This document shows, in pieces, positions 39,488 to 41,474 of a stretch of DNA of 64,000 nt. The stretch is from Saccharothrix espanaensis DSM 44229 (GTDB lineage Bacteria; Actinomycetota; Actinomycetes; Mycobacteriales; Pseudonocardiaceae): positions 62,001 through 126,000 of the forward strand of contig NC_019673.1 in the NCBI RefSeq assembly GCF_000328705.1, given 5' to 3'. The first letter of the stretch is position 1. The number at the start of each line of letters is the position of its first letter. Position numbers and translations under genes: made by a program. The notes beneath the pieces are model-generated. The model was given only the letters and a program-made list of their open reading frames with translations. It was not told where the DNA came from and did no database searches.

Positions 39488-40432
39488 GTGGCGAAGCGGA
39501 CGGCCGTGAAGAACCAGTCGGCGGACGGCGTCAACCCGCGCCAACCCTGCCCGTGTGGCTCCGGCAAGCGCTACAAGGCCTGCCACGGCGGGGCCGGCGG
39601 CGGGGCGGACGTCATCGTGGCCCGGCCGTTCGAGGGGCTCGCGGCGGAGACCGAGCTGATCGCGCTGCGCGAGTTCGTGCCGTCGGCCACGATGAAGCTG
39701 CCGCTCAAGGACGCCGGGCGCGAGGTGGTGCTCGCCTCGGTGCTGCCGATGGCCGCCGCCGCGCTGATCCGCGCCGACGGGACGGCGTTCGTCGGCCTCC
39801 AGGTCCAGACACGTTCGGGTGATTTGAGCCGGGACCTGGCCCGCGCGGTCCAGTGGGTGCTCACCGCCGAGACCGGTGACGCCCTCCCGGTGGTCGGCCC
39901 GGACGACGGCACGAACCCCGGCCGGTTGCAGGACCTGCTCGACGCGGACGCGACCGTCACCCCCGAGTTGCACACCGACTTCGCGTGGTGGATGCCGCCG
40001 GACAACGAGCCGGCCGGCGACGTGGCGTTGTCGCTGGAGCGGGCCAACGCGGCGATCCTGCCGACCGAGCGGGTCGACGCGCCGGGCGTGCACGCGGCGT
40101 ACTGGGTGGACGCGGGCGACAAGGCGCACCTGCGCTGGGTGCGCCCGGAGCCCGAGGAGCGGTTGCTGGCGGCGCTGGCGCGGCTGTCCGTGCGCGGCGA
40201 GCTGGACCTGGGCGAGGGCTCCCGGTACGCGGGGTCGTTCCGGGCGCACGGACTGCTGGTGCCGGTGTGGGACCTCGACCGCGAACTGCACTCCAGCGAG
40301 TGGGCATCGCCCGCCGAGGGTTTGAGCAAGCGTTTGCGGGATGCGCTGACCAGCCTGGACGACGAGCCGCTGACCGAGGCCGAGCGGCGCGCGCGGGACG
40401 GCCTGCGCGGTCGGCAGATCACGCTGAGGTAG
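39488..40432 (+). CDS. DUF5926 protein with N-terminal SEC-C zinc motif
   Basis: A 314-residue actinobacterial protein. The N-terminal SEC-C motif (PRQPCPCGSGKRYKACHGG) binds zinc in SecA and other proteins. The rest is the DUF5926 domain (FVPSATMKLPLK, FAWWMPPDNEPAGDVALSL, AYWVDAGDKAHLRWVRPEPEE). Function unknown; a link to protein export or to ribosomes is sometimes assumed from SEC-C only. GGAGG precedes the GTG by 7 bases. A DnaA-box cluster begins on the base after its stop codon. Confidence 0.9.
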   Translation: MAKRTAVKNQSADGVNPRQPCPCGSGKRYKACHGGAGGGADVIVARPFEGLAAETELIALREFVPSATMKLPLKDAGREVVLASVLPMAAAALIRADGTAFVGLQVQTRSGDLSRDLARAVQWVLTAETGDALPVVGPDDGTNPGRLQDLLDADATVTPELHTDFAWWMPPDNEPAGDVALSLERANAAILPTERVDAPGVHAAYWVDAGDKAHLRWVRPEPEERLLAALARLSVRGELDLGEGSRYAGSFRAHGLLVPVWDLDRELHSSEWASPAEGLSKRLRDALTSLDDEPLTEAERRARDGLRGRQITLR

Positions 40433-40490
40433 TTGTCCACAGAGTTATCCCCAGTTGTCCACAGCGGCCTGTGGATAGGGTTGTGGACAA
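40433..40490. promoter_or_regulatory. Cluster of five DnaA boxes
   Basis: Within 58 bases: TTGTCCACA at 40433-40441 and 40455-40463 (forward), TTGTCCACA at 40482-40490 (reverse), and two one-mismatch boxes, TTATCCCCA at 40445-40453 and CTATCCACA at 40470-40478 (reverse). TTGTCCACA is the actinobacterial DnaA-box consensus. Box starts are 10-15 bases apart, about one helical turn. There is no dnaA or dnaN and no AT-rich unwinding region, so this is not oriC; it is a candidate DnaA-titration or regulatory cluster located just upstream of the DUF952 gene. Confidence 0.9.
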
Positions 40491-40512: not shown

Positions 40513-40839
40513 ATGCTGCTGCGGATCGCTTCACGGGACGAGTGGGCGCGCGACCGGGAAGCCGGCGCGATCCCGCTCGACCCGGACGGCTTCGTGCACT
40601 GCTCGGACCCCGGCACGGTCCACCTGCCGGCCAACCGGGTCTTCCCCGGCCGGCACGACCTGGTGCTGCTGGTGATCGACCCCGAGGGCCTGCCCGTGCT
40701 GTGGGAGCCGGGCGACGGCGACGAGACCGGGCCGTGGTTCCCGCACGTCTACGGCCCCGTCCCGGCCGATGCCGTGGTGGCCGTGCAGGAGTTCACGCCC
40801 GACACCGACGGCGTGTTCCGCCCGCCGCCCGTCCTGTGA
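40513..40839 (+). CDS. DUF952 protein
   Basis: A 108-residue soluble protein of the DUF952 family: LLRIASRDEWARDREAGAI, DGFVHCSDPGTV, then LLVIDPEGL and GPWFPHVYGPVPADAVV. The fold resembles ADP-ribosyl-binding or glutathione-transferase-like small domains; no activity is established. GGGGAAGG lies 8-15 bases upstream of the ATG. It follows the DnaA-box cluster directly (22 bases), so DnaA binding could influence its transcription. Confidence 0.88.
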   Translation: MLLRIASRDEWARDREAGAIPLDPDGFVHCSDPGTVHLPANRVFPGRHDLVLLVIDPEGLPVLWEPGDGDETGPWFPHVYGPVPADAVVAVQEFTPDTDGVFRPPPVL

Positions 40840-40842
40840 CCT

Positions 40843-40906
40843 GATCCGGGGCAACCCAGATCCGGGGCAACCCAGATCCGGGGCAACCCAGATCCGGGGC
40901 AACCCA
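40843..40906. repeat. Four perfect 16-bp tandem repeats
   Basis: GATCCGGGGCAACCCA is repeated four times without a single change, starting 3 bases after the DUF952 stop and ending 58 bases before the sigma-factor start. Each unit contains the imperfect dyad GGGGCAACCC. The array lies in the 5' region of a sigma/anti-sigma operon. Confidence 0.97.
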
Positions 40907-40911
40907 GAGTG

Positions 40912-40964: not shown

Positions 40965-41474
40965 GTGACCGCGGTCCTGTCCGCCGACCGGTCCCAGGTC
41001 CAGGCCGACTTCGGGGAGTTCGTCCGGGTGAACCTGCCCGGTCTGCTCCGGTACGCGCACGCGCTGACCGGCAACCCGCACGACGCCGCCGACCTGGTGC
41101 AGACCGTGCTGGAGAAAGTCGGCTCGCGCTGGGGCGCGGTGCTGCGCAAGGACGTCGAACCGATCGCGTACGCGCGGCGGGCGCTGGCCAACGCGCACAT
41201 CAGCCGCTGGCGGCGGCACCGCCGCGAGCACCTGGTGGCCGACCTCCCCGAGGTCGTCGCCGCGGCCGGCGTCGACCGGCTGGAGCACGAACCGCTGTGG
41301 CAGGCGTTGCGCGCGCTGCCGCCGCGCCAGCGGGCCGTGGTGGTGCTGCGCTTCTACGAGGGCCTGTCCGAACAGGAGATCGCCGCGACGCTGGGCATCT
41401 CGCCGGGCACGGTCAAGAGCCAGAACAGCAAGGCGATGGCCACGCTGCGGCGTCGGCTGGAGCCGGAGGGGTGA
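40965..41474 (+). CDS. SigE-family RNA polymerase sigma factor
   Basis: A 169-residue SigE-type sigma factor. Region 2: FGEFVRVNLPGLLRYAHALTG and DAADLVQTVLEKVGSRWG; region 4: LPPRQRAVVVLRFYEGLSEQ and EIAATLGISPGTVKSQNSKA. GTG start with GGGGAG 6 bases upstream. It overlaps the following membrane protein by 4 bases (GTGA). The operon continues with a lipoprotein. The upstream 16-bp repeat array and hairpins suggest special control, possibly self-control. Confidence 0.92.
   Translation: MTAVLSADRSQVQADFGEFVRVNLPGLLRYAHALTGNPHDAADLVQTVLEKVGSRWGAVLRKDVEPIAYARRALANAHISRWRRHRREHLVADLPEVVAAAGVDRLEHEPLWQALRALPPRQRAVVVLRFYEGLSEQEIAATLGISPGTVKSQNSKAMATLRRRLEPEG

Follow-up and report, generated by a model that had tools for sequence, protein, structure and literature searches.

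The window analyzed here is a 64,000-nucleotide stretch of Saccharothrix espanaensis DSM 44229, corresponding to positions 62001-126000 of a single 9,360,653-base contig. Its central feature is a cluster of five DnaA boxes that fills the gap separating the stop codon of a DUF5926 / SEC-C gene from the DUF952 start, with an ECF-type sigma factor gene farther downstream (Table 1). A sequence-only reading of this DNA had placed five boxes in 58 bp, in both orientations, between the same two genes. Both the boxes and their placement are confirmed, with three exact copies of TTGTCCACA accompanied by two weaker boxes.

Table 1. DnaA boxes and neighboring genes, in window coordinates.
Feature	Position	Strand	Remark
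DUF5926 / SEC-C gene	39488..40432	+	Immediately upstream; stop codon abuts box 1
DnaA box 1, TTGTCCACA, perfect	40433..40441	+	Outer box; the spacing to box 3 is exactly 22 bp in all 25 genus genomes
Weak DnaA box 2, TTATCCCCA	40445..40453	+	
DnaA box 3, TTGTCCACA, perfect	40455..40463	+	Forward member of the opposing (head-to-head) pair
DnaA box 4, CTATCCACA	40470..40478	-	Reverse member of the opposing pair, at a spacing of 15 bp to box 3
DnaA box 5, TTGTCCACA, perfect	40482..40490	-	12 bp past box 4
DUF952 gene	40513..40839	+	Downstream of the cluster
ECF-type sigma factor gene	40965..41474	+	Farther downstream, context only

Box composition and local context

The five boxes run in the order + + + - - with start-to-start spacings of 12, 10, 15, and 12 bp. 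Boxes 2 and 4 each differ at one position from TTATCCACA, the DnaA box of the E. coli/B. subtilis type, and at two positions from TTGTCCACA. TTGTCCACA is the same sequence as the high-affinity box published for S. coelicolor and M. tuberculosis (Table 1 of PMC4285127). Third-order Markov simulations of the window (150 replicates) produced at most 1 exact box, and at most 2 boxes with ≤1 mismatch, per 66 bp; the cluster contains 3 and 5, respectively. Exact-pattern searches, the basis of the genome-wide box statistics, found 41 exact boxes in 9.36 Mb.

The sequence-only reading had reported no dnaA, dnaN, or AT-rich element. Neither gene is in the window, and no AT-rich stretch lies within 1 kb of the cluster, where no 30-bp segment exceeds 53% AT, a value reached at the cluster itself; oriC reaches 67%. 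A second replication origin is ruled out because an AT-rich region is absent and dnaA and dnaN are located elsewhere. Between the DUF952 and sigma factor genes, window positions 40843-40908 hold a perfect 16-bp tandem repeat, GATCCGGGGCAACCCA, in 4.1 copies.

Conservation in Saccharothrix and related genera

The cluster directly follows DUF5926, at the same place, in all 25 Saccharothrix genomes compared. Each of the 25 has a forward box, a second forward box exactly 22 bp on, and then an opposing box at 14-15 bp. The spacing of the opposing pair is 15 bp in 18 of these genomes and 14 bp in 7, and each opposing box is invariant across the genus at 7 of its 9 positions. A weak box with ≤3 mismatches lies 10-12 bp upstream of the opposing pair (box 3) in 22/25 genomes, and the extra reverse box, box 5, is unique to this genome among the 25.

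The analysis was extended to a sample of 43 other genera of the family. A similar cluster lies between DUF5926 and the next gene in five (Lentzea, Umezawaea, g72, g80, and g83). The g80 cluster (locus L144) is followed by a convergent reading frame, and no DUF952 or sigma factor gene was found beside it. The arrangement differs in genus g70 (locus L133), where only 4 bp separate DUF5926 from DUF952 and the boxes sit behind the latter gene. The other 37 of the 43 genera have DUF5926 with no cluster, and DUF5926 and DUF952, where adjacent, nearly abut in most of them. An independent DNA pattern scan recovered at least 23 Lentzea, Umezawaea, and Saccharothrix loci with the cluster at the same genes, S. 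carnea and S. yanglingensis among the Saccharothrix species. The opposing spacing in these loci is 15 bp in at least 20 and 14 bp in at least 3. Across 297 family genomes, the triplet pattern matched in 24 genomes and the reversed control in 0. Conservation of the boxes next to DUF5926, which the sequence-only reading had named as a check, thus extends through all 25 genus genomes and several related genera.

Outside the family, two Streptomycetaceae DUF5926 loci have no boxes. The triplet scan of 81 Streptomycetaceae genomes gave matches in 6, and four of these are oriC itself, between dnaA and dnaN. Homology with a Streptomyces cluster is not supported on these two grounds, the box-free DUF5926 loci and triplet matches that are mostly oriC.

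Position relative to oriC and other box groups

In chromosome coordinates, dnaA occupies 1-1554 and oriC 1555-2576, and dnaN starts at about 2577. The cluster lies downstream of dnaA/oriC at a distance of 100 kb, or 1.1% of the chromosome length. Its earlier description as away from oriC is correct in that dnaA and dnaN fall outside the window, but the site is only 100 kb off and is better called oriC-proximal. The distance from dnaA is both short and stable, at 81-106 kb (94 ± 7 kb), always on the dnaN side, in the 25 genus genomes. Exact boxes outside oriC are also concentrated in this part of the chromosome, where 16 of 39 lie within 250 kb of oriC compared with about 2 expected (p = 5e-11). 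The enrichment persists when each cluster is counted once (8/30 within 250 kb, p = 1e-4). A genome-wide density scan and the distance to oriC were both proposed in the sequence-only reading, and the boxes are indeed densest around oriC.

The constant distance itself was considered as a sign of selection on the boxes and rejected, because relatives without boxes share the gene position, with DUF5926 93-128 kb from dnaA. The S. espanaensis genome paper describes strong synteny around oriC across the family (PMC3469384). Since box-less relatives keep the DUF5926 position and the family is syntenic here, the stable distance is a property of the gene neighborhood. Selection on this predicted DnaA target is evidenced by box sequence and spacing, with distance excluded.

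Fixed positions in the genus are also occupied by at least three further DnaA-box pairs. Only genomes known from a prior listing to carry such a pair were compared, so the counts that follow describe conserved context and spacing, not frequency: the pair at about +130 kb has the same genes and the same 22-bp spacing in 8 other genus genomes, and for the pairs at about +310 kb and -200 kb the context is shared by 6 others each. The first follows a GNAT gene (136328-136371, 10 kb past the window end) and consists of two forward boxes 22 bp apart with an opposing TTGTGCACA 13 bp on (12-13 bp across the genus). The +310 kb pair (317015-317042) is in a SerB/CpaE-like intergenic region and is tandem-only with a spacing of 18-19 bp. 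The -200 kb pair (9139185-9139214), in a glyoxalase/Hmp-like intergenic region, is tandem-only with a spacing of 21 bp. Another DnaA-box group (9273025-9273249) lies between rplI and dnaB, the replicative helicase gene, just upstream of dnaB and about 90 kb before oriC. In several genus genomes, box pairs in opposite orientation with a spacing of 18-19 bp bound stretches of either about 2.5 kb or 6-7 kb (G153:C1:401553/407781, G156:C53:279023/284854, G157:C1:5402386/5408237, G158:C2:39697/46630, and G161:C1:3761928/3764405).

Predicted function and comparison with known systems

By sequence, the cluster is a real, conserved, oriC-proximal, non-coding DnaA-binding element, and it is very probably a switch that tunes the start of chromosome copying. 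The favored reading, with a probability of roughly 0.55, is a predicted DnaA sink near oriC that restrains re-initiation in the manner of Streptomyces and Bacillus. Cooperative loading of DnaA would be expected both along the tandem boxes and at the opposing pair. The site would be duplicated soon after initiation because it is about 100 kb from oriC, each new round would double a high-affinity sink, and the supply of DnaA for another start at oriC would then fall. We infer for this cluster that DnaA binds, that binding is cooperative, and that the effect on initiation is negative. S. coelicolor and B. subtilis clusters near oriC are reported to repress untimely initiation (PMC4585315, PMC5742627; B. 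subtilis, PMC5295017). Titration is consistent with a compact, non-coding box group outside oriC that exceeds chance and is kept among relatives, and the oriC-proximal position favors it over activation. Several observations count against it. A simple sink does not need the strict 22/14-15 bp spacing, which suggests a defined complex over a loose sink; the opposing pair is the hallmark of DARS, an activating element; and the cluster is missing from most related genera.

The cluster may instead be DARS-like, although this is rather improbable. The opposing boxes and their tandem neighbor would release ADP from ADP-DnaA to give ATP-DnaA and so promote initiation. The cores of E. coli DARS1 and DARS2, read from the MG1655 sequence, have a forward box at 0 and reverse boxes at +14 and +26. 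Boxes 3, 4, and 5 of the window are at 0/+15/+27 in the same orientations, with box I opposed to II/III, and box 4 is identical in sequence to the middle box of DARS2. The loci of the genus Umezawaea (L137 and L162), read on the other strand, are exactly 0/14/26, and Lentzea is 0/15/27. Identical spacing at both DARS and a box I in opposite orientation are described features of these elements (PMC5742627, PMC10380432). This geometry was rejected as proof. In a scan of the genomes of 84,980 species that allowed opposing spacings of 12-18 bp and gives rough frequencies, an opposing pair with a tandem neighbor is widespread in bacteria among the matches listed, mostly at 12-14 bp, with 12-13 bp the more frequent, and for the most part at 12 bp close to dnaA. 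What characterizes the present cluster is the 14-15 bp spacing alone. An opposing pair, at 12 bp, likewise occurs in the E. coli datA region. Position argues against this assignment as well, in that DARS1 and DARS2 of E. coli lie far from oriC and timely initiation is impaired when DARS2 is relocated close to it (PMC5742627). A literature search for DARS in actinobacteria found nothing. We know of none described in this phylum.

A composite scheme is somewhat less probable still. Here a conserved opposing-box DnaA complex near oriC would recharge ADP-DnaA, and the conserved tandem-only pairs at about -200 kb and +310 kb would have a restraining effect. If true, Saccharothrix and related genera would have a two-sided DnaA control circuit.

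Slightly lower again is the chance that DnaA at these boxes regulates transcription of DUF952, the sigma factor gene, or DUF5926. The boxes closely precede the DUF952 start, in some genomes with the last one overlapping the ribosome-binding region, and DnaA is described as a gene regulator (PMC8203912). A DUF952 operator is nevertheless unlikely because the cluster persists where DUF952 is missing beside it, together with the sigma factor gene (L144), or is on its other side (L133). The near-abutting of DUF5926 and DUF952 in box-less genera also counts against regulation.

An RNA hairpin or terminator that ends DUF5926, in place of a DnaA site, is very improbable. Boxes 3 and 5 (AGTTGTCCACA / TGTGGACAACT) could serve as complementary arms, as could TTGTCCACAGG..CCTGTGGACAA in several relatives. 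Covariation between the arms is lacking, which makes a hairpin unlikely: 214 of 225 pairs match compared with 215.3 in shuffled combinations, so what the arms keep is the box sequence and not the pairing. The conserved outer box 22 bp away falls outside the hairpin, and in some relatives (L137, L161, and L162) the boxes are preceded by an inverted repeat of their own. Chance or neutral debris, to which the confinement of the cluster to some genera of the family would be suited, can be set aside given about 2e-6 expected triples of exact boxes this tight, three in 58 bp, per genome and the fixed spacing kept in 25/25 genus genomes.

The sequence-only reading had proposed an equivalent of the Streptomyces clusters that titrate DnaA. 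Conservation with DUF5926, box density, and the distance to oriC agree with that proposal, which is nonetheless only partly supported in view of an opposing geometry like the E. coli DARS core, which has the opposite effect, and of the two box-free Streptomycetaceae loci. As a predicted member, the cluster adds to the known class of regulatory DnaA-box clusters, of which S. coelicolor is the only actinobacterial example outside oriC in the literature found. It offers a 58-bp target of fixed geometry that is present in several genera and absent from close relatives, on which a passive sink can be tested against a structured complex that changes the nucleotide state of DnaA. The same target bears on whether DARS-like reactivation exists beyond proteobacteria.

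The cluster shares features with four known systems. The S. coelicolor clusters (Smulczyk-Krawczyszyn et al. 2006, PMID 16923885) are likewise actinobacterial, have TTGTCCACA-type boxes, lie near but outside oriC, and are reported to repress untimely initiation (PMC4585315, PMC5742627); the two Streptomycetaceae DUF5926 loci are without a cluster, unlike those of Saccharothrix. In B. subtilis, which belongs to another phylum, several clusters outside oriC act jointly and removal of six leads to early initiation (Okumura et al. 2012, as stated in PMC5295017). E. coli datA is also a DnaA-box cluster close to oriC and has a negative role (PMC4585315), but it spans about 260 bp or more and needs IHF between its boxes (PMC5742627), whereas the Saccharothrix cluster is contained within 58 bp. 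E. coli DARS differs in its distance from oriC, far compared with near, and the Saccharothrix cluster has extra tandem boxes on the other side of the opposing pair.
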